Assembly: GCA_021205725.1 (NCBI GenBank)
Contig: JAJPWY010000054.1
Span: 1-41,461, forward strand
Reading direction: 5' to 3'
DNA length: 41,461 nt
Source of the DNA: Clostridiales bacterium
GTDB lineage: Bacteria; Bacillota; Clostridia; Oscillospirales; Oscillospiraceae
Positions 4,396 through 16,727 of the stretch are shown here, in pieces. The translations under genes were made by a program, and so were the position numbers. Within the stretch, counting starts at the first letter, position 1; the number at the start of each line of letters is the position of its first letter. The notes under the pieces were generated by a model. The model was not told where the DNA came from. It saw only the letters and a list, made by a program, of their open reading frames with translations, and did no database searches.

Positions 4396-4748
4396 GACAC
4401 CCTCCGGTACCGGGCCAGGCTGTCCAAAATCTCCGCCGTCCCGGCCCGCAGCTCGGCGGGGGAGAGATACTGCTCGGACTGGCTGATCTGTCCCTCGGAG
4501 TAGGCGGAGGAGCGCAGTCCACCGCCCTCCAGCTCCCACCGATCCCGCTGATAGTAGAGGGCCGCCAGCTCCACTGCCTTATAGAGGAACTGCTCCTCCA
4601 GGGAACTCACCCCCAGATAGATCAGCAGCTCACCCTCAGCGTCCAGCAGCTCGTCCTCCAGCAGCAGGGCCACGTCCTCCTCAGGATTTTCCAGCCCCAG
4701 CTTTCTCGCCAGCCGCTCCAGACTGGACTCCATCTGCTCGTTCGTCAT
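4389..4748 (-). CDS. Phage head-tail connector protein (gp6-like), 119 aa
   Basis: It sits directly after the coat protein gene and is mostly helical, with the acidic pattern of connector adaptors (SPP1 gp15 / HK97 gp6 type) that bind below the portal ring: LLEDELLDAEGELLIYLG then LYKAVELAALYYQRD. The ATG at 4746-4748 is preceded by AAGGGGTAATCCC, which overlaps the end of the coat gene 5 bases away. The length of 119 residues is normal for the family. Assignment is by order, size and helical pattern. Confidence 0.78.
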   Translation of the reverse strand: MTNEQMESSLERLARKLGLENPEEDVALLLEDELLDAEGELLIYLGVSSLEEQFLYKAVELAALYYQRDRWELEGGGLRSSAYSEGQISQSEQYLSPAELRAGTAEILDSLARYRRVSC

Positions 4749-4752
4749 GGGA

Positions 4753-5598
4753 TTACCCCTTGTTGCAGGTCATGACTGCCAGGGCCTTGGGCTGGACGAC
4801 CTTGGCCCCGTAGACGTGGAGCCCCTTCACGGCGTCGGAGAAGTTCTTCTCCAGCCGGTAGGCCTCCAGCTCCACCAGCTGCTCGGCATAGGCCCCGGCG
4901 GCGCTGGTGCCGGCGATGACCTTGTACAGAGAGCCGTTGGTGTTGGGGACATTGTTGGACAGATGGATCTGGAACCCGGCGGCCTCGCCCACCAGACCGC
5001 CCTGGAGGATGGCCTGGTTGTAGCCCGTACCGTTGCCCACGAACCGGGAGTCCTTCAGCAGCAGGCCGTGGTACCAGGGGGGCAGCACCACCCACCGGCC
5101 CAGCATGGGGACGTTGGCCTCGTTGAGCAGCACTCCCAGATCTACCAGGTAGTCATAGGCGTTTGCGCTGGTGGGGGTGACGGCGGAGCTGTCGTCATAG
5201 AGAATGTTGCCGCTGTCCGCTCCCTCCAGCAGCAGGGAGGCCAGATACTGGTCGATCACGTCGTTCATGCCGTAGCTGGCCCGCTGCATGGCGGCGTCCA
5301 CCAGCTTGGGGTTGGACTGGGCGTGATCCACGTCCTTCACCTGGAAGTTGAAATACTTGGCCTTGTCGATGGTCAGATCCTGCATGGAGCCGTCCAGCTC
5401 CTCCGGGTCGGCGATGTCCGCGCCGGTGTAGTCGCTGATGGTGATGTCCCCCAGCTGGTTGATGTGTACCGTGTCGCCATAGGCCCGGATCTCGCCCTCA
5501 TAGTCCCGGTTCATCAGACCGGCGTAGACGTGGACGTTGTCCAGATGCTCCAGCAGCCGGGCGGACCAGATCTCAGGGATAAAATTGGAAAATGCCAT
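4753..5598 (-). CDS. Major capsid protein, P22 coat-type, 281 aa
   Basis: It forms the icosahedral head. The sequence has hallmarks of the P22-coat-like family of Firmicute phages: an N-terminal segment ending in IWSARLLEHLDN, then RDYEGEIRAYGDTVHINQLG, ISDYTGADI, and the middle KYFNFQVKDVDHAQSN. The C-terminal half contains LPPWYHGLLLKDSRFVGNG and a domain ending HVYGAKVVQPKALAVM. The ATG at 5596-5598 follows AAGGATGAGAG. The scaffold gene lies just upstream and the connector just downstream, so particle assembly genes are in normal order. No frameshift or truncation is visible. Confidence 0.9.
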   Translation of the reverse strand: MAFSNFIPEIWSARLLEHLDNVHVYAGLMNRDYEGEIRAYGDTVHINQLGDITISDYTGADIADPEELDGSMQDLTIDKAKYFNFQVKDVDHAQSNPKLVDAAMQRASYGMNDVIDQYLASLLLEGADSGNILYDDSSAVTPTSANAYDYLVDLGVLLNEANVPMLGRWVVLPPWYHGLLLKDSRFVGNGTGYNQAILQGGLVGEAAGFQIHLSNNVPNTNGSLYKVIAGTSAAGAYAEQLVELEAYRLEKNFSDAVKGLHVYGAKVVQPKALAVMTCNKG

Positions 5599-5639
5599 TC
5601 GCTCTCATCCTTTCCTTATGTTGTCAATATGGTATCGTG

Positions 5640-6179
5640 TCATTGTGTCTCCCGGAGCAGACCGGAGATCTGTTCCCAGTTCCGGTTGATTTCCCGGGGG
5701 GACATCCCCCGCACCTGCTCCCGGGTCAGCTCCCGGGGCCGATCCGGTTCTCTGGGGGCGGCCTCCCCCCGCATCCGTCCGGCCACCGCCTGGGACAGGG
5801 CCTCCTGAAACAGCCCGGTGAACGCTTCCACCCGCTGGGCGGAGTCCTCGTCGCTCTCGCCGGTGATCCAGGGGGCAAAACGGGCATCCAGGCCCCGCTG
5901 CTGCAGGGCTTCGCCCACTGCCACCTGCCGGAGCCGCCGGTCAAAGTCCTGCCGCTGTCCGGCAAGCACCTGCCGCTCCTGCGCCAGCGTCTCCTGCATC
6001 TCCGCCTCCAGCGTCTGACGGATTCGATCCTCCTCCCCCTGACGATCCCGTTCCCAGTTGGCCCGGGCAGTGGCCAGTGCCTGGCTCACCTTTTTGTCGT
6101 AGGCGGACTGATAGTCCCGATCCTCCCGGAGCAGCGTGTCCAAATCCGGCCGCTCCTGTCTCAGCTCCTCTGCGCTCAT
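5640..6179 (-). CDS. Capsid scaffolding protein (DUF4355-like), 179 aa
   Basis: Scaffolding proteins direct procapsid assembly and then leave the head. This one lies between portal and coat genes, is strongly charged, and is a long predicted coiled coil from about residue 15 to 90, rich in Glu, Arg and Gln (RIRQTLEAEMQETLAQERQV). A conserved-looking FAPWITGESDEDSAQRVEAF block follows, then a C-terminal basic segment. This layout is that of DUF4355 scaffold proteins. The start codon overlaps the portal stop in an ATGA (6176-6179), indicating translational coupling. Confidence 0.85.
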   Translation of the reverse strand: MSAEELRQERPDLDTLLREDRDYQSAYDKKVSQALATARANWERDRQGEEDRIRQTLEAEMQETLAQERQVLAGQRQDFDRRLRQVAVGEALQQRGLDARFAPWITGESDEDSAQRVEAFTGLFQEALSQAVAGRMRGEAAPREPDRPRELTREQVRGMSPREINRNWEQISGLLRETQ

Positions 6180-7603
6180 CCGATCTTCTCCTCTCCGTCC
6201 GGACCGTTCCCGAAGGCCCGCCCCGTCCTGTTATGGTCACAGGCATTGCCTGCTGTCCCCTGTAGCTGCTCCTGACGGCGGAGATTCCGCAGCGCCTCCG
6301 CCGGGTCCCGGATAAACCAGAGCTGCCCCAGCAGCGTCTGGTCGTCCACCATTCCCCGGAGGCGGGTCACCATGTCCACCGTCTCGCTCTCGTTGATGGG
6401 CAGGTTCCGGGTGAACACCACGTCCACCTCTGCCGCCGACACCGGGGCCATCTCCCCCTTGACGGCCAGCCAATGGCTGTACAGCTCGAACCGCTCCCGC
6501 AGTCCCCGCTCCATCTGCCGCATCTTGCCCTGTACCAGCTGCTCCATGGTCAGCAGCTTCAGCTTCAACGCCTGCCCGGAGGCGTTGCCGGAGAACTGCT
6601 CATCGGACATATCCACCGTCAGGGTCATCTTGTGCATCTCCCGTACCAGGCTGTCTGCCAGCACCTGCACCCCCGCCTCGTCGAAGGTCTTTTGGATGTA
6701 CTCCGCCCGGGCGTCCAGGGGCGCCCCGTCGATGAACCGCTCCCGGAGCAGCTTTTCCTCCTCCCCGGGGGCCAGGGTCATGCCGAAGAACACCAGCAGC
6801 GCATCCACGAACCGCCGCTTATCGGTGAGACGGCTGGACATCAGGTCGTCATAGGCGTCGATCAGGCTCATGATCTGCTCAAAGTCCCCCTGGCGCTCGG
6901 CGTTGTTCTCATAGGCGATCACCGGCACCGCCCCGAAGTAGTGCTCCCGGGCCGGGCCGATGGGCCGAAAGACCGCCGTCTCCAGGTCGCCGCTGATATA
7001 GTCCCGCTCCGTCCGGTCGGTGTAGCAGGTGACGGCGTAATACTGCTCTCCGGAGGGCCGCTCCCGCCGCTCCCACACCAGGGCCAGCAGCTTGTTGTGC
7101 TCCACGGTGGCGTCGCACAGGAGGATGCCGTTTCTCGGGTCGATCCGGGCGCTCCTGGGGTGTGGATTTGCCTCGCAGGAGGCGTAGCACAGCTCCAGGC
7201 AGTCCCCCATCACCCCCATGGTCTTGCCGATCTCCCGATCCACCTGACCGATGTGCTGCCGGTCATAGCAGGTCAGCAGGGGAGTGATGTCCAGCGCCCG
7301 CCGTCCCAGCAGGCCCCGGGAGGGAGCCTCGCTCCAGCTCTGAGGGTTGGGGTCGTATTTCACATCCGTCCCCAGATAGTACCCCAGGGCGATGTCCACC
7401 ACATACCGGGCGTAGTTCACCGCCACCCGGCTCTCCCCCTCTCCGCCGCTGCGATGGAGGATGTCGTGCTCTCCCCGATAGTACCGATCCAGCCGCTGAT
7501 ACCGGCCGTTGGCGCTCTCCGCCTTGCGGATGCACCACCGGAGCACCGCCGGGTCGGGATGCTCCGGGTCGGGGAGATCCTGTCTGTCCACATACAAAAT
7601 CAT
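6176..7603 (-). CDS. Phage portal protein, SPP1 gp6-type, 475 aa
   Basis: It makes the twelve-subunit ring through which DNA enters and leaves the head. The features fit SPP1 gp6-type portals: an N-terminal RYQRLDRYYRGEHDIL, then VNYARYVVDIALGYYLG, the central VPVIAYENNAERQGDFE with SLIDAYDDLMS, and the late FSGNASGQALKLKLLTMEQL. The length of about 475 residues is normal. I prefer the ATG at 7601-7603, which has GAGGTGA 7 bases upstream, over the GTG at 7612. The C-terminal residues are polar and overlap the scaffold start by 4 bases. No MuF-type head protein gene follows it. Confidence 0.92.
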   Translation of the reverse strand: MILYVDRQDLPDPEHPDPAVLRWCIRKAESANGRYQRLDRYYRGEHDILHRSGGEGESRVAVNYARYVVDIALGYYLGTDVKYDPNPQSWSEAPSRGLLGRRALDITPLLTCYDRQHIGQVDREIGKTMGVMGDCLELCYASCEANPHPRSARIDPRNGILLCDATVEHNKLLALVWERRERPSGEQYYAVTCYTDRTERDYISGDLETAVFRPIGPAREHYFGAVPVIAYENNAERQGDFEQIMSLIDAYDDLMSSRLTDKRRFVDALLVFFGMTLAPGEEEKLLRERFIDGAPLDARAEYIQKTFDEAGVQVLADSLVREMHKMTLTVDMSDEQFSGNASGQALKLKLLTMEQLVQGKMRQMERGLRERFELYSHWLAVKGEMAPVSAAEVDVVFTRNLPINESETVDMVTRLRGMVDDQTLLGQLWFIRDPAEALRNLRRQEQLQGTAGNACDHNRTGRAFGNGPDGEEKIG

Positions 7604-7630
7604 GCTGTTCACCTCATATCTGAAATTGGT

Positions 7631-8878
7631 TTATAATCCCTTGGGCCGCTTCCCGGCCCGGGCCTGGCTGCGCACCAGTACAGTGCTCACAAAGTAGCGT
7701 AGGGCGTCCATACAGTGGTCGTGCTCCTTCACCGGCCTGTCCTGTCCGGTCTCGTCCTCGTCCCAGACGTAGCTGCGAAACTCCTCTATGGTCCGGACGC
7801 AGCCGGGAGAGAAGAGCAGCCGCTCCTCCCGGAGCAGGTCGCCCACCCGTCGGATGCCGGAGAGCACCTGATTGTCCGCCCCCAGGACGGGGTATCCCCG
7901 CTGCCGGAGCAGGGCGATGAAGCTGGCCGCCGACGGGTCAACAATCACCGCCCGGGGCTTCACTCCGTCCAGAAACACCTCCAGATCGTCGGCATACTCC
8001 CCGTCCGTCTTCTGCCGCATCCGGTCCCGGCCGGACCAGTAATACTCCCGCAGGCAGTACCACCGGCCCCGCTCCCCCTTCTGCCACAGCAGAAAGACGG
8101 TGGGATTCTGGGTACCGTAGTCGATGGAGACATAGCACTCCCGTCCGGCCTCCGGCAGCTGCTCCGTGACGTGGATCTCCGGCCGGAACATGTCGTAGAT
8201 CAGCCCCTTTGCCGCCGCCCAAAGCCCCTGGACGTACCGCTGGTAGAACACCCCGGTATACAGCCGCTCATACCGCTGCCGGATGGCGGGGGAGAGGGCG
8301 GGATTGTCCTCCATGGTGAAGTGGAGATAGAGCAGGTTCCGCTCCTCCGCACGGGAGAGCCAGCTCTGATAGAACCAGTGGGTGGGACCCTCCGGGTTGC
8401 AGTTGAACCAGAATTTGGAGCCCTCCACGCTGCACCGGGCCAGCGCCTGCTCCACAAAGAACCGGGGCATCAGCGCCACCTCGTCAAACAGCACCCCCGC
8501 CAGGGTCATGCCCTGGATGAGGGCATAGCTCCCCTCGTCCTTGCCGCCGAACAGGTAATAGTCGTTCTCATGCCCGTTCATGCGCACGGTGAGCCGGTTC
8601 TCTCCCCGGCGCTCCTCGATGACGCACAGCCCCTCCATCCACTGGGGCAGCAGCCCGGACACGTTCCGCCGCAGGCTCTCGATGGTCTTGCCGCAGAGGG
8701 CGAACCGCTGCCGGTCAAAGGTCTCCATGCTCCACAGCAGAAAGCCTACCGCCATGCTCACAGTCTTACCTGAACGCACCGAGCCGTCGCAGATAATTCC
8801 GTCACGGCTCCGGAACGCCGGGTGCTTCCACCAGGTGAGCACCAGCTTCTGCCGTCTGCTGAACGTCCGGTAGTGCAT
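7631..8878 (-). CDS. terL: Terminase large subunit, PBSX family, 415 aa
   Basis: This is the motor ATPase and nuclease that packages and cuts phage DNA. The Walker A motif is GSVRSGKT (residues 32-39); the Walker B end is VLFDEV with Asp132 and Glu133. RNase H-type nuclease aspartates are visible in SIDYGTQNP (Asp253), VIVDPSA (Asp314) and HDHCMDALRY (Asp387, Asp391). All catalytic positions look intact. The length is normal for the PBSX/XtmB-type family. The start at 8876-8878 follows GAGAGGAG and lies 77 bases inside the small terminase gene, a larger overlap than others in this operon. Confidence 0.95.
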   Translation of the reverse strand: MHYRTFSRRQKLVLTWWKHPAFRSRDGIICDGSVRSGKTVSMAVGFLLWSMETFDRQRFALCGKTIESLRRNVSGLLPQWMEGLCVIEERRGENRLTVRMNGHENDYYLFGGKDEGSYALIQGMTLAGVLFDEVALMPRFFVEQALARCSVEGSKFWFNCNPEGPTHWFYQSWLSRAEERNLLYLHFTMEDNPALSPAIRQRYERLYTGVFYQRYVQGLWAAAKGLIYDMFRPEIHVTEQLPEAGRECYVSIDYGTQNPTVFLLWQKGERGRWYCLREYYWSGRDRMRQKTDGEYADDLEVFLDGVKPRAVIVDPSAASFIALLRQRGYPVLGADNQVLSGIRRVGDLLREERLLFSPGCVRTIEEFRSYVWDEDETGQDRPVKEHDHCMDALRYFVSTVLVRSQARAGKRPKGL

Positions 8879-9320
8879 CCCCTCTCAACTCCTCTCTCTC
8901 CCAGTCTCCCAGGGCCGCAAACAGATTGTTCTCCGCCGGAGGCCCCGGCTCCTCCTCTCCGCAGTCCCACACCACCGGCTTCCGCCGTTTCAGCCACAGG
9001 CTGATGGCGGTGACGTTGGGGCTGACCTCCTTCTCCGTGGAGACCAGCTTGTCTCCCCGTTCGGTCTGCTCCGTCTTTTCCTCGGTGTACCGGTAGCCCA
9101 TGGCCGCCTTGAGCAGCGCCTCCTCCACCTGGTAGTCGGTGAGCTCTCCCGTCTGGGCCAGCGCCGCCCCGATGGCCGGATACCGGCTCTGCCAGATCCG
9201 CAGGCCCAGGGGCTTGAGCCCCATCCGGCGGGCGATCTCCTTCGTCTCCACACCGTCCCGCACCCAGCCCCGCAGCAGGGCCAGCTGCTCCGGCTGCTGC
9301 CAGAACTCCGCCTGGGTCAT
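8802..9320 (-). CDS. terS: Terminase small subunit, 172 aa
   Basis: The small terminase recognises phage DNA and hands it to the large subunit. The N-terminal part carries a helix-turn-helix-like segment (about residues 12-45: LALLRGWVRDGVETKEIA then RMGLKPLGLRIWQSRYP), as in phage DNA-packaging small subunits. The middle has a helix plus ALLKAAMGYRYTEEKTEQT, common in Firmicute TerS proteins of the PBSX-associated kind. I start it at the ATG at 9318-9320, which has a very strong GGAAGGAGGAGAG site; the longer frame to 9530 is intergenic. Its end overlaps terL by 77 bases. It is the first gene of the visible late operon. Confidence 0.88.
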   Translation of the reverse strand: MTQAEFWQQPEQLALLRGWVRDGVETKEIARRMGLKPLGLRIWQSRYPAIGAALAQTGELTDYQVEEALLKAAMGYRYTEEKTEQTERGDKLVSTEKEVSPNVTAISLWLKRRKPVVWDCGEEEPGPPAENNLFAALGDWEREELRGDALPDVQQTAEAGAHLVEAPGVPEP

Positions 9321-9753
9321 GTCCTCTCCTCCTTCCCGCACCGGATATCCCCGGCGCTCTTGCTGAGTAAAGGATAGAACATTCGTGCTATTTGCAAAAT
9401 GCAAAAAACAAATTTTCAACGAAAAAGAGGGGAGAGAACGGTGGAAAGTTGCAAATCTGCGCAAACAGGCGCAGAGAGGCAGAATGTAGAGAACCGGCGG
9501 CGAGAAGGGAGAGTGGGAAAATATGAACAACGTGTCAGGATGTGCACACGTCCTGGCTCCCCCCTTGAGGCAGGGAGCGTAGCGGAAGTGCCGCTTGACG
9601 GCGGAGCTGTCGCCGCAAGGCGACTGAGGGAGAGCAGTAGAAATTGCCGATACGCTGAAGTCCTGCGGCGAATTCGCTGAGGACTGGCCTTATGCTGCTT
9701 TTTGACATCTGCGAGAGGAAGCCAACATACACCCAAAAACTTTCCCTACCCTG
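9321..9753. other. Intergenic stretch between prophage terS and host cluster
   Basis: No convincing gene lies here. It holds an AT-rich leader near 9365-9425 with the small inverted repeat TTTGC-ATTTT-GCAAA, presumably the control region of the late operon, but I found no well-spaced -35/-10 pair. It also holds the diverged copy of the dispersed repeat (9556-9680). No integrase, direct-repeat attachment site or tRNA was recognised, so the exact prophage boundary is unresolved. Confidence 0.5.
9556..9680. repeat. Dispersed double-hairpin repeat, copy 2 (diverged, expanded)
   Basis: It begins GGCTCCCCCCTTGAGG and, after about 30 extra bases (AGCGTAGCGGAAGTGCCGC...), contains the second hairpin GTCGCC-GCAA-GGCGAC followed by TGAGGGAGAGCAGTAG and a tail with CGGCGAATTCGCTGAGG. 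The stem of the second hairpin matches copy 3 and the loop differs (GCAA for GTAA). It marks the stretch between the prophage and the LRR gene. Confidence 0.7.
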
Positions 9754-9820: not shown

Positions 9821-10960
9821 ATGCCCTGGACGATTTACTACCATGTTGCCGACGGCGAGGCCGCCGTCCTTCGCTGCGCCGGAGACGGCGCTCCCCTGAC
9901 CCTGCCGGAGACGGTGGAGGGCTGCCCGGTCACGTCCCTCGGCCCGGACTGCTTCGGAGGCGGGGAGTGGACAGGGGAGAGGGACCGCCTGGTCGCCGCT
10001 GCCCCGGAGGAGCTGCCGCCCCTCTCCCGGACCGACAGCCCCCTGACCCGGCTGACCATCCCGGAGACGGTCACTTCCATCGGCGACCGGGCCTTCGCCC
10101 GGTGCAGCAGCTTAAAACGCCTCACCCTCCCGGCGGACTTGACCCATCTGGGGGCCAGAGCCTTTCAGGGCTGCGGCAGCCTGGAGCGCATCCGTCTCCC
10201 GGAGGGGCTGGTCGATCTGCCGGACTATGCCTTTTCCCAGTGCCGCCGTCTGGAGCGGGTGACCGTGCCCACCCGGCTGGAGACCCTGGGGAGCCATGCC
10301 TTTTACAACTGCGTGGCCTTGAAGGAACTGACCCTCCCGGACACGGTGAACTTCGTGGGGGGCGGGCTGTTCCTCAACTGCAAGCATCTCTCCCGGCTGA
10401 CCCTCCCGTTGGGCATCAACATCAGCGTCCTGCTCTCCGATCTGTCGGACGATCTGAACCTGACCGTCCGCTGTCCCGACGGGGTGGCCCGGTTTTTCCT
10501 CCCAGGCTTTTCCTATGAGTACGAGGACATCAACGCCCCCCGGATGTGGCGAACCATCACCTACGGCTCCGGCCAGCTCTACCGGGAGTGCTTTTCCAGC
10601 CGGGACATCGACTTTGAACTGTACGAGAGCTATTTCGACCTGGCCCGGAAGGAGGAGACTCCCGCCGTGGCCGCCCGCATCGCCTGGTATCGCCTCCGCT
10701 GGCCCTATCACCTGGGCAAGGGCCGGGAGGACTATCTGGCCTATGCCGCCGCCCATACGGGAGAGCTGCTGGCCCTTCTGCTGGAGCAGGAGGACACCGA
10801 GGGCCTGGAGGCTCTGCTGGAAATTTTGTCTCCGTCCGGGGAGACGCTGGAGGCGCTGTCCGGACAGGCGGAGCGGGCGGGGAACGTCCGCTTTGTCAGC
10901 CGTCTGCTGGAGGCCCGGATGGGTCTGGGCGGCGGCGCAGACCGGGAATTTGACCTGTGA
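9821..10960 (+). CDS. BspA-type leucine-rich-repeat protein, cytoplasmic, 379 aa
   Basis: Residues about 74-190 form five consecutive 23-residue repeats of the LRR_5 (BspA/TpLRR) type: LTRLTIPETVTSIGDRAF, LKRLTLPADLTHLGARAF, LERIRLPEGLVDLPDYAF, LERVTVPTRLETLGSHAF, LKELTLPDTVNFVGGGLF. A degenerate unit precedes them (LTLPETVEGCPVTSLG). The remaining 180 residues are mostly helical. Most BspA proteins are secreted adhesins, but this one has no signal peptide, anchor or membrane segment, so it is probably cytoplasmic and acts as a binding scaffold. It is the first gene of an operon whose next member starts 12 bases after its stop. In view of the downstream VWA and MoxR genes, a substrate-recognition or adaptor role is inferred. 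The start has AGGAGGCTTCGCC upstream. Confidence 0.85.
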   Translation: MPWTIYYHVADGEAAVLRCAGDGAPLTLPETVEGCPVTSLGPDCFGGGEWTGERDRLVAAAPEELPPLSRTDSPLTRLTIPETVTSIGDRAFARCSSLKRLTLPADLTHLGARAFQGCGSLERIRLPEGLVDLPDYAFSQCRRLERVTVPTRLETLGSHAFYNCVALKELTLPDTVNFVGGGLFLNCKHLSRLTLPLGINISVLLSDLSDDLNLTVRCPDGVARFFLPGFSYEYEDINAPRMWRTITYGSGQLYRECFSSRDIDFELYESYFDLARKEETPAVAARIAWYRLRWPYHLGKGREDYLAYAAAHTGELLALLLEQEDTEGLEALLEILSPSGETLEALSGQAERAGNVRFVSRLLEARMGLGGGADREFDL

Positions 10961-10971
10961 CGGGGGAGCAT

Positions 10972-12336
10972 ATGCACGAAAATCACGAAAAGCTGGATCG
11001 TCTGGGCCGGGCCATCCTGTCCTCCGCCCGGAACGAGCTGTATCTGAATATGCGCTTTCTGGACATCGCCCTGTCAGGCCTGGACTACGCCATGAACCTG
11101 AACACCCCCACCATCGGGGTGGACGGCATCTCCATCCAGTTCAACCCCCGGTATCTGATGGAGCTGTACCGGGACGACCTGGTGCTGCTCAACCGGGTGT
11201 ATCTCCATATGCTGCTCCACTGTCTCCTCCGGCACCCCTTCAACCGGCAGGGCCGGGAGGAGGAGCGGTGGAGCCTGGCCTGCGACATCGCCGTGGAGTC
11301 CATCTTGGACTCCATCGACAGCCGTTGCCTGAAGGTGATGCAGAGCGAATTCCGGGAGGACACCTACGCCGACCTGAGCGCTGAAATGCCCGTCCTGACG
11401 GCGGAGGCCATCTACCGCTGGCTGGGCCAGCGGTGCCGGAGCTATGACGACGAGCTGGCCCTCATCCGGGAGTTCCGCCGGGACGACCACCGGTTCTGGC
11501 CCCCGGAGGATGACCCCCAGGGGGACAGCCAGCCGGACGATCAGCCGGGAGACGGGGACAACGGCGACGGGGACCGTCGGCAGGAGCTGGAGGACAAGTG
11601 GCGAGACCTGGGAGAAAAGACCCAGACCAGCCTGGAGACCTTCTTTGCCGACCACGGCGACCAGGCGGGGGACCTGCTCCAGTCCCTGGCGGTGGAAAAC
11701 CGGGAGCGGTACGACTACCGGCAGTTTCTCCGCCGCTTTGTCACCACCCGGGAGGAGATGCGGGTGGACGTGGACAGCTTTGACTACGCCTACTACGCCC
11801 TGGGCCTGGAGCTGTACGGGGACATCCCCCTCATCGAGCCGCTGGAATACCGGGAGAGCCGGAAAATCCAGGACTTCGCCATCGTCATCGACACCTCGGA
11901 CTCCTGCTCCGGGGACACGGTGCGCCGCTTTCTGGAGGAGACGAGGGCCGTCCTGTCCAGCGAGGGCCTGTTCTTCGACCACGCCAACCTCCACATCATC
12001 CAGGCGGACGCTGGGGTGCAGCAGGACACGGTGGTACACACCCCGGAGGAGCTGGAGCAGCTTTGCCGGGACTTTCAGGTGCGGGGCTTCGGCGGCACCG
12101 ACTTCCGCCCCGCCTTCGGCTATATCGACGGCCTGGTGCAGTCGGGAGAGCTGGCGGGGCTGAAGGGCATCCTCTACTTCACCGACGGCTTCGGCAGCTA
12201 TCCGGAGCGCAAGCCGGACTACGAGACCGCCTTCGTCTTTTTCCGGGAGGACTACCAGGCGCCCCCGGTGCCCCCCTGGGCCATCCGGGTGGTGCTGGGC
12301 CCGGAGGAGCTGCCGGAGTGGACGGAGGGCGGCTGA
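10972..12336 (+). CDS. VWA-like protein with DUF2201-type pseudo-metallopeptidase domain, 454 aa
   Basis: The N-terminal domain (about 1-160) resembles the putative metallopeptidase domain found with VWA-like domains (DUF2201 group). The helix that normally carries HExxH reads HMLLH (79-83) followed by His88, so the histidines are kept and the catalytic Glu is Met. An acidic Asp/Gly/Gln linker covers 170-205. The C-terminal VWA domain has a complete metal-ion site: DTSDS (307-311), GGTDF (Thr376) and FTDG (Asp405). Such proteins pair with MoxR AAA+ ATPases, one of which is encoded 1.7 kb downstream. I prefer the ATG at 10972, with GGGGGAG just upstream, over the GTG at 10957 that would overlap the LRR stop. 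Confidence 0.85.
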   Translation: MHENHEKLDRLGRAILSSARNELYLNMRFLDIALSGLDYAMNLNTPTIGVDGISIQFNPRYLMELYRDDLVLLNRVYLHMLLHCLLRHPFNRQGREEERWSLACDIAVESILDSIDSRCLKVMQSEFREDTYADLSAEMPVLTAEAIYRWLGQRCRSYDDELALIREFRRDDHRFWPPEDDPQGDSQPDDQPGDGDNGDGDRRQELEDKWRDLGEKTQTSLETFFADHGDQAGDLLQSLAVENRERYDYRQFLRRFVTTREEMRVDVDSFDYAYYALGLELYGDIPLIEPLEYRESRKIQDFAIVIDTSDSCSGDTVRRFLEETRAVLSSEGLFFDHANLHIIQADAGVQQDTVVHTPEELEQLCRDFQVRGFGGTDFRPAFGYIDGLVQSGELAGLKGILYFTDGFGSYPERKPDYETAFVFFREDYQAPPVPPWAIRVVLGPEELPEWTEGG

Positions 12337-12372
12337 CGCTTTTTACATGGGAATCAGTGATGAAAGATGCCT

Positions 12373-12393
12373 GGCTCCCTCAAAGAGGGAGCC
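12373..12393. terminator. Hairpin after the LRR-VWA operon
   Basis: GGCTCCCT-caaag-AGGGAGCC forms an 8-bp stem. A run of six T lies about 20 bases further on, so it is a poor textbook terminator. The arm resembles the first hairpin of the dispersed repeat and may be a remnant of it. Confidence 0.4.
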
Positions 12394-12427
12394 AAGAATA
12401 GATTTCATCCTTTTTTCGGGAAACCCC

Positions 12428-12458
12428 TTGACTGTCAACCGGCTTGATACCTTATGCT
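12428..12458 (+). promoter_or_regulatory. MerR-type promoter with 19-bp spacer and operator dyad
   Basis: TTGACT (12428-12433) and TATGCT (12453-12458) are separated by 19 bases instead of 17. The spacer contains the dyad TCAA-CCGGC-TTGA. Long-spacer promoters with a dyad between -35 and -10 are the hallmark of MerR-family targets, where the regulator untwists the DNA. The next gene encodes a MerR-type protein, so autoregulation is the natural reading. Confidence 0.75.
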
Positions 12459-12508
12459 GGGGACAGAGAACAGGGGAACGACAGCCCCCTGCAAAGGAGG
12501 TCATACCC

Positions 12509-13984
12509 ATGACGATCAAGGAGATCGAGAGCCGTTCCGGCATGGTGCGGGCCAACATCCGCTTTTACGAGTCGGAGGGCCTGCTCCACCCCCAACGGGA
12601 GGCCAACGGCTACCGCAACTACTCCCAGGATGACCTGGAGACCCTGCTGCGCATCAAACTTCTGCGAACCCTGGGCCTGTCCGTCGAGGAGATTAGGGCC
12701 CTGGGCCGGGGAGAGGCGGCGCTGCCTGACGCTCTGGATGAGCGGCTGGCCCAGCTGGAGCGGGAGCAGGCGGCGGCAGAGCGCTCCCGGCAGGTCTGCC
12801 GGACCATGCGGGCGGACGGCGTCCAGTGGGAAAACCTGGACGCCCGGCCCTATCTGGACGCCTCCGCCGCCGGGCCCTCCGCCCCCGCCCCCACTCGGGC
12901 AGTCAGGGAGGACGTGACGCCCCGGGTGCGTTCCCCCTGGCGGCGGTTTTTCGCCCGGGGGCTGGACCTGACCCTGTGCCAGCTGCTTTGCAGCGCCCTG
13001 TTCTGCCTGGCAGGCAACAGCGGACTCACCCAAGACACCTGGGGAACGGCGACCGCCCTGCTGGCCCTGCCGCTGTTGCTGTTGCTGGAGCCGTTGTTCC
13101 TGTCCCTGCTGGGGGCCACGCCGGGTAAGCTGATTCTGGGCCTGGAGGTCATGGACGGAGAGGGCGGAAGACTGTCCTACCCCGCCGCCCTCCGGCGGAC
13201 CTGGAGGGCGCTACTGTACGGCTGCGGCCTGACGGTTCCCCTCGTTGACCTCTACCGCCTGTGGAAAAGCTGCCGCACCTGCGGAGAGGGGGAGACGCTG
13301 CCCTGGGAGGAGGACAGCGAGCTGACCCTCCGGGACGAGAAGCCCTGGCGGAGCGTCGCTGCCGGGCTGGCCTGGGCGGCGCAGGTAGGGCTGTTTGTGC
13401 TGACCATATCCGCCGCCGGGATGCCCCCGCACCGGGGGACGGTGACGGTGGCGGAATTTTGCGACAACTACAACCGCCTGTCCGCCTATTACGGGGTGGA
13501 CATCACCTATCAGGGCGGGGACGGCGCAAACTATCAGGGCCTGGACAGCGACGGCAGCTGGAGCGCCCTGGCGGGAGACGGGACGGTTTACATCTATATG
13601 AGCGAGCTGTGCGCCCCGCCGGAGCTGCAATTCAGCGAGTCGGAGGGGGCTATGACCGGCCTGTGCCTCTCCGCCGCCCTGGAGGGCGGGAACGAGATGC
13701 TGTTCGAGCCCTATGGGAATGAGATGCAGCTGGCCGTCCTCTCCTTTGTAGCGGCGCAGAACGGCGGCCCTGTGAGAGGAGAGCAGGTACAGGCCCTGCT
13801 GGAGCAGATCGAGGGGTATGACTTTCAGAGCTTCGAGGCTCAGGCAAACGGCGTCACCGTGACCTGTCAGGTGGACTACTCCGGTTATGAGCTCTGGCAC
13901 ACCGGGGACGCGGCGGTGCTGTCCCCCAGAGAGGGAGAGGAGACGCATTTCTCCTTCCAGTTTTCCATGACACAGACGGAATAA
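12509..13984 (+). CDS. MerR regulator fused to RDD membrane domain and C-terminal sensor-like region, 491 aa
   Basis: Residues 1-70 are a MerR winged helix (IKEIESRSGMVRANIRFYES, then GLLHPQREANGYRNYSQDD), followed by a dimerisation helix to about 105 and a Pro/Ala linker. From about 145 to 270 lies an RDD-type membrane domain (FFARGLDLTLCQLL; ATPGKLILGLEVMD between helices). A further hydrophobic helix near 292-315 (SVAAGLAWAAQVGLFVLTI) leads into about 175 residues, probably extracytoplasmic. The start ATG has AAAGGAGG 8 bases upstream; the longer frame is leader. A one-piece membrane-bound transcription factor is inferred: the outside domain could sense a signal and pass it to the DNA-binding head. 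It sits between the VWA and MoxR genes, 53 bases before MoxR. Ligand and targets are unknown. Confidence 0.85.
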   Translation: MTIKEIESRSGMVRANIRFYESEGLLHPQREANGYRNYSQDDLETLLRIKLLRTLGLSVEEIRALGRGEAALPDALDERLAQLEREQAAAERSRQVCRTMRADGVQWENLDARPYLDASAAGPSAPAPTRAVREDVTPRVRSPWRRFFARGLDLTLCQLLCSALFCLAGNSGLTQDTWGTATALLALPLLLLLEPLFLSLLGATPGKLILGLEVMDGEGGRLSYPAALRRTWRALLYGCGLTVPLVDLYRLWKSCRTCGEGETLPWEEDSELTLRDEKPWRSVAAGLAWAAQVGLFVLTISAAGMPPHRGTVTVAEFCDNYNRLSAYYGVDITYQGGDGANYQGLDSDGSWSALAGDGTVYIYMSELCAPPELQFSESEGAMTGLCLSAALEGGNEMLFEPYGNEMQLAVLSFVAAQNGGPVRGEQVQALLEQIEGYDFQSFEAQANGVTVTCQVDYSGYELWHTGDAAVLSPREGEETHFSFQFSMTQTE

Positions 13985-14037
13985 CTAGGGCATCACCGCA
14001 CAAATACAAAAAGACAACAGACGAGGGAGCAACGGGA

Positions 14038-15540
14038 ATGAACATCAAAGAGGCGAAGGAACAGGTCAAAAACACGGTAAAGGCGTATCTGTCCAAAGAC
14101 GAGCACGGGGAATGGAGCATCCCCCTGGTGGCCCAGCGGCCCATCCTGCTCATGGGCCCTCCGGGGGTGGGAAAGACCGCCATCGCCCAGCAGGCGGCCC
14201 GGGAGTGCGGCGTGGCCCTTGTGAGCTATACCATCACCCACCACACCCGCCAGTCCGCCATCGGCCTGCCCAGCATCCGGGAGGCCTCCTATCACGGCAA
14301 ATCCTTCCAGGTGACGGAGTACACCATGAGCGAGATCATCGCCAGCGTCTACCGGGCTATGGAGGAGACGGGGCTGGAGAACGGCATCCTGTTTCTGGAC
14401 GAGGTGAACTGCGTCTCCGAGACCCTGGCCCCGGCCATGCTGCAATTTCTCCAGTGCAAGACCTTCGGCAGTCATAAGCTGCCGGAGGGCTGGGTCATCG
14501 TGGCGGCGGGAAATCCCCCGGAGTACAACCGCTCCGTCCGGGACTTCGACGTGGTGACCCTGGATCGGGTGCGGCGGCTGGACATCCAGGCCAGCTACCC
14601 GGCATGGAAGGAGTACGCCTATCTCCGCCAGGTGCATCCGGCGGTGCTGGCCTATCTGGAGCTGAAGCCGGGGAATTTCTATCGCCTGGAGACTACGGTG
14701 GACGGCAAGCGCTTCGCCACCGCCCGGGGCTGGGAGGACCTGTCCCGGCTCCTCTCCGCCAGCGAGAGGCTGGGTCTGACGGTGGACGAGAGCGTGGTGG
14801 GCCAGTACATCCAGTACCCCGCCGTGGCCAAGGACTTTGCCAACTACTACGACCTCTACCGGAAATACCGGACGGACTACGACGTGGAGGCCATCCTCTC
14901 CGGCCATCTGACGGAGAAAACCGTGTCCCGTCTCCGGACGGCTCCCTTTGACGAGCGGCTGTCCGCTCTGTCCCTGCTGCTGGACGCCCTGTTCCGCACC
15001 TGCCGGGAGGCCAACGAGGAGGACGCCTATGTGACCCTTCTCCACAGCCAGCTCAAGGGTCTCATGCCCGCCCTGGAGGGCGGCACTGCCCCGGAGGCCG
15101 CCTTTGCCCCGGTGACGGAGACGCTGGCGGGAATGAAGGCGTCCAAAGCCAGGGCGGATCTGCTGGAGCCGGAGGAGGCCCGGCGGATGAACCGGGCGCT
15201 GGATACCCTGGACGGGCTGCTCCAGACCCTCCGGCGGGAGTCCCTGACGGGAACCGCCGCCGCGGATCGGGTGCGCACCGACTTCCGGGGAGCGGTGGAG
15301 GCCCGGAAAGGGGCCATTCAGAACGCCTCCCTCCGGCTGGACCGGGCCTTCGCCCTCATCGAGGCCGCCTTCGGGGAGGGCCAGGAGCTGGTCATCTTCC
15401 TGACCGAGCTGACCATGAACCCCTACTCCATGGCGTTTATCGCTCAGAACGGCTGTGAAAAGTTCTCCGGCTACAACCGCTCCCTCCTGCTGGGGGGCCG
15501 TCAGCGGGAGATCCTCCGGGAGCTGGAGGAGAACGGATGA
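14038..15540 (+). CDS. MoxR-type AAA+ ATPase, 500 aa
   Basis: The AAA+ core occupies about residues 20-290: Walker A GPPGVGKT (40-47), Walker B ILFLDEVN (117-124, Asp121/Glu122), sensor-1 region VAAGNPPEYN (Asn159), and an arginine-rich VVTLDRVRRLDI that fits the arginine-finger region. The C-terminal 200 residues are helical and charged. MoxR ATPases work with VWA proteins as remodelling machines that mature or regulate other complexes (RavA-ViaA, MoxR-MxaC); here the VWA partner gene lies upstream in the same direction. The start follows GAGGGAGCAACGGGA. The stop overlaps the start of the MFS gene (ATGA), so the two are translationally coupled. Confidence 0.9.
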   Translation: MNIKEAKEQVKNTVKAYLSKDEHGEWSIPLVAQRPILLMGPPGVGKTAIAQQAARECGVALVSYTITHHTRQSAIGLPSIREASYHGKSFQVTEYTMSEIIASVYRAMEETGLENGILFLDEVNCVSETLAPAMLQFLQCKTFGSHKLPEGWVIVAAGNPPEYNRSVRDFDVVTLDRVRRLDIQASYPAWKEYAYLRQVHPAVLAYLELKPGNFYRLETTVDGKRFATARGWEDLSRLLSASERLGLTVDESVVGQYIQYPAVAKDFANYYDLYRKYRTDYDVEAILSGHLTEKTVSRLRTAPFDERLSALSLLLDALFRTCREANEEDAYVTLLHSQLKGLMPALEGGTAPEAAFAPVTETLAGMKASKARADLLEPEEARRMNRALDTLDGLLQTLRRESLTGTAAADRVRTDFRGAVEARKGAIQNASLRLDRAFALIEAAFGEGQELVIFLTELTMNPYSMAFIAQNGCEKFSGYNRSLLLGGRQREILRELEENG

Positions 15541-16727
15541 GAGACGGAACCGCCCCCAACTATCAACACACCCTCTTTGCCTGCTGCTTTGGGTACATCA
15601 CCCAGGCCATCGTCAACAGCTTCGCGCCCCTGCTGTTTCTCACCTTCCAGTCGGAGTTCGGCATCCCCCTGGAGCAGATCACCCTGCTGGTGACGCTGAA
15701 CTTCTGCATCCAGCTCACGGTGGACCTGCTGTCGGTGAAGCTGGTGGACAGGATCGGCTATCGTCCCTGCGCCGTGGCCGCCAACCTGTTTGCCGCTCTG
15801 GGCCTGGTGGGGCTGGGGACGCTGCCCTCTCTGCTGCCGGATCCGTATATCGGCCTGCTCTGCTCCGTAGCCCTCTACGCTGTGGGGGGCGGACTGCTGG
15901 AGGTGCTGGTCAGTCCCATCGTAGAGGCCTGCCCCTTTGACAACAAAGCGGGGGTCATGGCAAACCTCCACTCCTTCTACTGCTGGGGCTGTGTGCTGGT
16001 GACCCTGGTCTCCACCGGATTTTTTGCCCTGGCGGGGGTGGGCAACTGGCGCATCTTGGCCTGTCTGTGGGCGGTTTTGCCCCTGGCCAACGCCCTGCTG
16101 TTCACCCGTGTCCCCATCCCCACCCTGGTCCCTGAGGGAAAGGGGATGAGCCTGGGGGAGCTGCTCCGGTCCAAGGTGATCTGGCTGTTCTTCGTGCTGA
16201 TGCTCTGCTCCGGAGCGGCGGAGCAGGCCATGAGCCAGTGGGCCTCCACCTTCGCCGAGGCGGGGCTCCAGGTGTCCAAGACGGTGGGCGACCTGGCGGG
16301 GCCCTGCGCCTTCTCCCTGCTCATGGGGGCCAGCCGGGCCATCTACGGCAAATTCAGCGAAAAGTGGGACCTAGTCCCCTTTATGATGGGTAGCGGCGTG
16401 CTGTGTATCGCCAGCTACCTTCTGGCCACCCTCAGCGGAAACGCGGCGGTGGGACTGGTGGGGTGTGCCCTCTGCGGCTTCTCCGTGGGCATCCTCTGGC
16501 CGGGCACCTTCTCCCTGGTGTCGGCCAGATGTCCCCGGGGCGGCACCGCCATGTTCGCACTGATGGCCCTGGGGGGCGACCTGGGCTGCGGCGGCGGTCC
16601 CACTTTGGTGGGACTGGTCTCCAGCGCCGCCGGCGATCTGAACATCGGCCTGCTGGCGGGGGTGATTTTCCCCGTCGTCCTCATCGCCGGTCTGCTGCTG
16701 GTGCGGCGGACGGAGAGGGTAAAATAG
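15537..16727 (+). CDS. MFS transporter, 396 aa
   Basis: It is a major facilitator protein with about twelve hydrophobic segments and the length usual for the family. The loop after TM2 reads VKLVDRIGYRP, the degenerate GxxxDRxGxR motif. The repeat loop between TM8 and TM9 (GASRAIYGKFSEKWD) matches the second half. The general look (FQSEFGIPLEQITLLVTLNF near the start, GILWPGTFSLVSARCP near the end) is like fucose-permease-type MFS proteins, which often carry sugars, but the substrate cannot be read here. Its start codon overlaps the MoxR stop by 4 bases. It may belong functionally to the MoxR/VWA cluster or simply be co-transcribed. A bidirectional terminator follows at once. Confidence 0.88.
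   Translation: MRDGTAPNYQHTLFACCFGYITQAIVNSFAPLLFLTFQSEFGIPLEQITLLVTLNFCIQLTVDLLSVKLVDRIGYRPCAVAANLFAALGLVGLGTLPSLLPDPYIGLLCSVALYAVGGGLLEVLVSPIVEACPFDNKAGVMANLHSFYCWGCVLVTLVSTGFFALAGVGNWRILACLWAVLPLANALLFTRVPIPTLVPEGKGMSLGELLRSKVIWLFFVLMLCSGAAEQAMSQWASTFAEAGLQVSKTVGDLAGPCAFSLLMGASRAIYGKFSEKWDLVPFMMGSGVLCIASYLLATLSGNAAVGLVGCALCGFSVGILWPGTFSLVSARCPRGGTAMFALMALGGDLGCGGGPTLVGLVSSAAGDLNIGLLAGVIFPVVLIAGLLLVRRTERVK

Follow-up and report, generated by a model that had tools for sequence, protein, structure and literature searches.

Which of the four genes that occupy positions 9821-15540 of a clostridial contig belong to one system, and how could such a system work? The window, that is, the whole 41,461-nucleotide contig JAJPWY010000054.1 of assembly GCA_021205725.1 (Clostridiales bacterium, Oscillospiraceae), encodes a leucine-rich repeat (LRR) protein of the BspA type, a protein with a von Willebrand factor A (VWA) domain, a MerR-RDD regulator and a MoxR ATPase, which a sequence-only reading had tentatively joined in a single remodelling unit. 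The four open reading frames (ORFs; the longest ORF was taken for gene calls throughout) are all intact and, as that reading stated, lie in one direction (the + strand, as do all features below unless noted otherwise) with short gaps of 11, 172 and 53 bases: the LRR gene at 9821-10960 (379 amino acids, aa), the VWA gene at 10972-12336 (454 aa; the likely start ATG at 10972 is preceded by 'gggggag', and the stop ends at 12336), the MerR-RDD gene at 12509-13984 (ATG at 12509 after 'aaaggagg', stop at 13984) and the MoxR gene at 14038-15540 (500 aa). Comparative analysis upholds only a part of the four-gene unit: the LRR, VWA and MoxR proteins, which are conserved together, co-occur even when unlinked and co-evolve, almost certainly constitute one functional unit, whereas the MerR-RDD protein is not a member.

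Among the 32 genomes of the genus, MoxR is detected at E<=0.001 in 30, with 28 orthologues (two partial at contig ends), and the regions around 27 of these orthologues were scanned for neighbours. Wherever enough flanking sequence was available, the LRR, VWA and MoxR genes almost always have the same strand and order, and the order is unchanged where the identity of the LRR protein falls to 41-45%. In two genomes (G002 and G027), VWA and MoxR are kept together with the LRR gene on another contig, and in a third one (G023), LRR and VWA share a contig and MoxR is found on another. The three genomes without MoxR (G011, G026 and G030) also lack the VWA gene and the C-terminal domain of the LRR protein. 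The 2.1-Mb source genome carries approximately 10 LRR_5 genes, so a single accidental LRR neighbor would be unremarkable; the conservation of the trio over dozens of genera, however, is not explained by chance.

The same association holds at greater evolutionary distances. In 200 genomes of the family (106 genera), MoxR is present in 31 and the VWA protein in 32. The LRR C-terminal domain occurs in 24 genomes, every one of which has the VWA protein; 23 also have MoxR, the contig of the 24th (G111) ending inside the VWA gene. An LRR protein or a tailed helical partner (see below) is found in 25 of the 31 MoxR-positive genomes, and the loci carry one to four LRR genes, encoding proteins of 180-1058 aa, that are located upstream of VWA, between the VWA and MoxR genes, or downstream of MoxR. 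MoxR was further identified in 16 of 291 genomes (13 of 181 genera) sampled from the class and in 4 of 299 sampled from the phylum, one of them outside the class. The locus of that kind, L194 (G421:C3:57000-73000), contains a trio in which a 1177-aa LRR protein ending in DDYEL is encoded directly upstream of VWA, and is a candidate for horizontal transfer.

From 403 relatives among the candidates, 80 loci in named Clostridia were chosen by MoxR similarity, including those of Oscillibacter, Blautia, Anaerostipes, Gemmiger, Faecalibacterium, Mediterraneibacter and Caproiciproducens, with species such as Coprococcus comes and [Clostridium] symbiosum. The neighborhood proved to be conserved, which for these three genes passes the test that the sequence-only reading had set, namely whether they are neighbors in other genomes: LRR, VWA and MoxR are contiguous in this order on one strand, with median gaps of about 20 bases, in 63 of the 80 loci, which are related by descent and do not represent independent events. 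In the remainder, the LRR gene is elsewhere in the cluster (5/80), VWA and MoxR occur without LRR (4/80), the locus is cut by a contig end (1/80), or no VWA gene was counted on the strand (7/80). One of the latter seven loci, L134, in fact holds all three genes and fell out of the count only because its MoxR frame, as called, overlaps VWA, which makes the count of 63 slightly conservative. Clustering of the flanking genes in the named loci revealed no other conserved partner. The distance matrices of the three proteins correlate with one another (r 0.90-0.93, 65 loci).

The MerR-RDD protein (MerR_1, E 5.5e-18; RDD, E 1.6e-14; Pfam) follows a different pattern. Its gene is present in 10 of the 32 genus genomes but is adjacent to the system in only 3 and located elsewhere in 7; it separates VWA from MoxR only in the window and in the loci L032 and L035, shares a contig with the trio in one further case, at a distance of about 125 kb, and is found once in G011, a genome without MoxR. 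Because the gene is mostly elsewhere, including a genome that lacks the system, it is to be regarded as an independent gene that is inserted between VWA and MoxR here, and its membership, claimed in the sequence-only reading, is rejected. A putative MerR-type promoter-like site read from the sequence, TTGACT-19 bp-TATGCT (12428-12458) with TCAAccggcTTGA in its spacer, would accordingly be assigned to the MerR-RDD gene rather than to the trio.

The LRR protein consists of three parts. BspA-type repeats, identified by Pfam LRR_5 (E 9.9e-33; 113 bits against a cut-off of 27.7), span residues 74-190 (10040-10390) and form a probable recognition module. In the AlphaFold2 (AF2) model, with an overall predicted local distance difference test (pLDDT) score of 86, the solenoid extends to about residue 250 and is followed by a helical domain (residues about 251-366, 10571-10918; helices at pLDDT about 97), the probable docking domain, and by a low-confidence tail. 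Using VIA-align, the solenoid matches TpLRR 6mlx (Z 15.3, root-mean-square deviation (rmsd) 5.8, 150 aligned residues) and 4oju (Z 12.8, rmsd 2.1, 124 aligned), and 4gt6 is matched as well. A likeness of the helical domain to Ctf4/AND-1, at Z about 8, is within the range expected for helical bundles and was not used. The N-terminus, MPWTIYYHVADGEA, is the first cap strand of the LRR (AF2, E4-10); because the chain begins directly with this strand, neither a signal peptide nor a transmembrane segment is apparent in the sequence or the AF2 model, although no dedicated signal-peptide predictor was applied. The description of the protein as BspA-type without a signal peptide thus stands, and the secretion or surface location that accompanies this type is not indicated here.

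The most distinctive feature of the LRR protein is its C-terminal tail, R-E-F-D-L-COOH (10943-10957), which conforms to the family motif [KR]x[FY][DE]L and, given the low AF2 confidence, is probably flexible. Of 63 LRR proteins, 58 have a C-terminus of the form [FY]x[LFI], compared to 15 of the 855 other genes in these loci and none of 76 VWA and 80 MoxR proteins. The five exceptions end in DDL, DDI, EDL or EDF (e.g., YDFDDL, YTFDDI, YSFDDL and FSLEDF), with the aromatic-acidic core kept but shifted by a few residues. In the 42 sequences that remained after dereplication at 60% identity, L occupies position -1 in 33 (F in 8), D/E position -2 in 31, F/Y position -3 in 38 and K/R position -5 in 33, whereas positions -4, -6 and -7 vary widely, with high entropy; the tail is conserved even though the median identity of the LRR proteins is 28%. 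The LRR proteins unlinked from MoxR in G002, G027 and G023 end in DKDFSL, EREFEL and DKEFDL (DKDFSL in L192, EREFEL in L193). The possibility that the tail is a DNA-level artefact, caused by an overlap of the LRR stop with the VWA start, was rejected because unlinked and differently placed LRR genes retain it.

Some systems have a smaller third component. Homologues of the helical domain that lack LRR are encoded at L059:3526-3885 and L062:11185-11553; in the systems of G167 and G130, such proteins of approximately 120 aa are encoded directly before VWA and end in DRDFSL and PEYSL, and the counterpart in G131 is a 180-aa protein ending in TDYDL. Since these LRR-less partners carry the tail, the comparison of sequences indicates that the helical domain and the tail are the core of the third component and that the LRR is an added, variable module. 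Two further observations concern this component. A 454-aa ankyrin-like protein that ends in ADPYDL (L068:5208-6569) precedes a divergent MoxR-VWA pair in one of the six family genomes that show no LRR partner (see below) and is a possible non-LRR counterpart. Around the VWA-MoxR pairs of L084, L170, L149, L080 and L159, there are two to five large LRR genes, some of them ending in FTL or FTLE, which suggests an expansion of the LRR component in these genera.

The VWA protein (AF2 pLDDT 81) combines DUF2201_N (PF13203; E 3.8e-12, 46.8 bits against a cut-off of 23.2) with the VWA-like DUF2201 domain (PF09967; E 6e-10, 39.7 against 26.4 bits). The model yields a VWA-fold match (Z 13.6, rmsd 2.8, 150 aligned), with the VIA structure matches covering residues 255-449 and not the N-terminal domain; a sequence search of solved structures with the VWA profile returned nothing significant. 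In an alignment of 60 homologues (A5), the metal ion-dependent adhesion site (MIDAS), which the sequence-only reading correctly described as complete, is invariant, comprising D307, S309 and S311 of the D-x-S-x-S motif (11890-11904), T376 (12097-12099) and D405 (12184-12186). The N-terminal domain contains a degenerate zincin motif, HMLLHCLLRH (residues 79-88, 11206-11235), in which the His triad H79, H83 and H88 (HxxxHxxxxH) is retained in 60/60 homologues, as are E109, D171 and H173; at residue 80, the place of the catalytic Glu of HExxH, 55/60 carry M, V, S, L or T (M in the window), and the five commonest residues there do not include Glu. In contrast, the motif is intact (HExxHxxxxH) in plasmid-borne relatives from Synechocystis, Thermus and Cupriavidus, which read HELLH, HEALH and HEVLH. 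The clostridial protein is therefore a member of this family by homology but, lacking HExxH, is predicted not to be a peptidase.

The MoxR protein (AAA, E 5.4e-9; AAA_5, E 1.3e-7) has near-invariant Walker A (GPPGVGKT, residues 40-47, 14155-14178) and Walker B (LFLDE, 14389-14403) motifs in alignments A1 and A6, and this core, together with the genetic pairing with a VWA gene, places it among the MoxR AAA+ ATPases; a search of solved structures by sequence gave generic AAA proteins only. Alignment with the MoxR of classical DUF2201 pairs delineates a C-terminal extension of about 160 aa (residues about 330-500, 15025-15537) that is absent from the 341-347-aa MoxR-type neighbors of classical DUF2201 genes; its last 60 residues are well conserved within the genus.

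How these parts might work together is suggested by a better-studied pair. In NorQD, mutations of the MIDAS abolish target activation with NorQ binding unaffected, and acidic target residues have been proposed as the likely sixth metal ligand of the MIDAS (PMC9976466); a finger of the VWA domain enters the pore of the NorQ AAA+ ring, and the NorD C-terminus contacts the postS1 loop (PMC13036017). By analogy, the clostridial trio would be a three-part remodelling machine with the LRR protein as a tail-docking adaptor, a mechanism that, taken as a whole, we favor with somewhat more confidence than doubt. MoxR would form an ATP-driven ring with the DUF2201 VWA protein seated on it and the MIDAS metal binding partners; the helical domain of the LRR protein and its flexible [KR]x[FY][DE]L-COOH tail would dock on this VWA-MoxR core, the acidic residue of the tail or its terminal carboxylate being most likely placed on the MIDAS metal and the helical domain adding contacts; the LRR face would hold a client, expected to be cytoplasmic; and ATP hydrolysis would exert a pull or twist on the assembly of VWA protein, adaptor and client. 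The sequence-only reading considered an LRR scaffold a plausible substrate adaptor, and this idea is strengthened by the conserved tail and by the LRR-less minimal partner, neither of which that reading had noticed; it had also missed the DUF2201 identity with the zincin-like N-terminal domain. As a tentative extension, and a doubtful one, interchangeable tailed LRR proteins could bring different clients to a single VWA-MoxR engine by way of the MIDAS, with the former peptidase domain serving as a scaffold; if so, this would amount to integrin-like peptide recognition inside the bacterial cytoplasm.

Several observations weigh against the adaptor mechanism. The six family genomes with the most divergent MoxR show no LRR partner, and in some genera the large multi-LRR proteins end without the tail. 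Some tails (FAL, FVL, FRL and FQL) contain no acidic residue, so that in these cases the contact with the MIDAS would depend on the terminal carboxylate, unless the tail binds elsewhere. VIA-align gave no confident structural match to the helical domain (best Z at most 8), and the common descent of the named loci limits what their counts can carry.

It is possible, although less probable than the adaptor mechanism, that the LRR protein is a dedicated client: its tail would be captured by VWA-MoxR, and the LRR protein itself would be remodelled or activated, in the way that NorQD acts on cNOR, to perform the cellular work. The linkage and the tail fit this scheme equally well, the commonest arrangement is a single tailed partner per locus, and NorQD and CbbQO each act on one dedicated target. 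However, a 120-aa helical partner that dispenses with LRR altogether, the wide variation in LRR size and number, which is odd for a client with a fixed function, and the lack of any enzymatic domain in the LRR protein (Pfam) favor the adaptor.

Another candidate for the docking site is the cleft of the DUF2201_N pseudo-zincin, in which case the dead peptidase would be the tail receptor and the MIDAS would bind the client. The invariance of H79, H83, H88, E109, D171 and H173 despite the loss of the catalytic Glu would imply that binding of a metal or peptide without cleavage is under selection, and C-terminal carboxylates naturally serve as ligands to bound metals. Nevertheless, the MIDAS is equally invariant and has a precedent for partner binding, which makes docking in the cleft unlikely.

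A role in anti-phage defence or another conflict, akin to the MoxR-vWA ternary systems of Kaur et al. 2020, was raised by the sequence-only reading but found no support here and appears improbable. The general parallel (MoxR, vWA and a third component), the patchy presence in the family (31/200 genomes) and the evolutionary rate of the LRR gene, about 2-4 times that of the VWA and MoxR genes when close relatives are compared, would be compatible with such a role. In PADLOC, however, the LRR and VWA proteins are unmatched and the MerR and AAA matches are weak and generic; bpMoxR scores 24.8 bits, below the cut-off of 27, and the P-loop is GPPGVGKT, not GXXXTAKS. Neither Pfam searches of the window nor clustering of the flanks, which are not conserved, detected VMAP, iSTAND, FtsH, TERNS3 or effector domains, although the helical domain may have a remote similarity to one of them; the system is also present in nearly the whole genus and has no orthologue on viral contigs. 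All three genes are under purifying selection, with the ratio of nonsynonymous to synonymous substitution rates (dN/dS) below 0.4 throughout (0.04-0.24 among close relatives and at most 0.36 in the most distant pair). The LRR gene evolves fastest, above all in residues 1-72, a pattern that fits a recognition part outpacing a motor and not the strong diversification of a conflict effector.

Finally, a mere inherited neighborhood with no functional tie between LRR and VWA-MoxR, to which the order conserved among related Clostridia and the abundance of LRR_5 genes in the source genome might point, is hardly credible given that linkage persists while order and spacing change, that unlinked LRR genes are retained only together with the system, and that the tail is conserved in otherwise dissimilar proteins.

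The surroundings of the trio include several other elements. The MoxR gene overlaps by 4 bases at its 3' end with a major facilitator superfamily gene (15537-16727, +). An NCBIfam scan of the window proteins gave no equivalog above the cut-off. Directly upstream of the LRR gene, on the - strand (4745-9323), there are prophage-type genes that by sequence resemble those for capsid, portal and the large and small terminase subunits; homologues of the terminase subunits TerS and TerL lie beside the trio also in L031, L033 and L034, with none found in L032, and a prophage has probably integrated next to the trio. Carriage of the trio as prophage cargo was rejected because L032 has the trio without terminase genes and the viral contigs lack an orthologue. 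Two UNVERIFIED GenBank scaffolds labelled 'Bacteriophage sp.' (L186, MT835935.1; L187, MT837836.1) carry an LRR-VWA-MoxR trio but were set aside as probably mislabelled bacterial contigs, because the longer record has bacterial-looking neighbors and resembles a bacterial chromosome. Plasmid carriage was rejected as well, plasmids holding distant relatives only. The 172-base gap before the MerR-RDD gene contains a perfect palindrome (12370-12396, TGGCTCCCTC-AAA-GAGGGAGCCA), and a related GGCTCCC/GGGAGC-rich element precedes the LRR gene (about 9555-9640); both stretches resemble short interspersed palindromic elements.

MoxR-VWA machines are widespread but few have known targets. On the question of how targets are chosen, the clostridial system offers a candidate selector, the LRR protein, together with a short peptide tail and a MIDAS, and it occurs in genera common in the human gut (Blautia, Coprococcus, Gemmiger, Faecalibacterium, Anaerostipes and Mediterraneibacter). 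It also suggests a role that BspA-type LRR proteins, usually considered surface proteins, may play as a cytoplasmic class, and presents a metallopeptidase domain turned predicted pseudoenzyme within a chaperone pair.

Among known systems, RavA-ViaA is likewise a cytoplasmic MoxR-VWA pair but is not known to have an LRR partner or a pseudo-zincin domain, and Pfam and NCBIfam searches of the clostridial proteins detected no RavA- or ViaA-specific domains (MoxR gives generic AAA and VWA gives DUF2201). NorQ-NorD and CbbQ-CbbO share the MoxR AAA+ ring and a MIDAS-bearing VWA partner that contacts the target; they differ in their unrelated N-terminal domains and targets and in having no LRR third protein. 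The MoxR-vWA ternary conflict systems follow the same logic of MoxR, vWA and a third component, which in their case is VMAP, iSTAND, FtsH, a beta-propeller, iSTAND2 or TERNS3, and they are found mainly in other phyla, concentrated in multicellular bacteria and typically associated with effectors (PMC7159879, PMC8195603); the clostridial trio has an LRR and helical-domain third component and no effectors were found with it. A literature search, with subscription papers largely outside its reach, found nothing that links BspA and MoxR, an LRR component with such a machine, or DUF2201 with MoxR, and the novelty of the LRR-VWA-MoxR system is provisional. The LRR protein resembles BspA-type proteins in its LRR_5 repeats and in its matches to 6mlx, 4oju and 4gt6, several solved relatives being described as cell-surface proteins, whereas the clostridial protein shows no signal peptide and possesses the helical C-terminal domain and the tail. 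A further likeness is to the classical DUF2201-MoxR pairs, compared here in Synechocystis (pSYSA_M, MYO_RS17305/17300) and Thermus oshimai (pTHEOS01, THEOS_RS11255/12685), which have a homologous VWA-like DUF2201 protein with a zincin-like N-terminal domain and a MoxR ATPase partner. In these pairs, a MoxR of 341-347 aa is encoded ahead of the VWA protein, which retains HExxH, and the annotation shows no LRR partner; the clostridial system has a 500-aa MoxR, the opposite gene order, no catalytic Glu and, as a fixed feature, a third gene.

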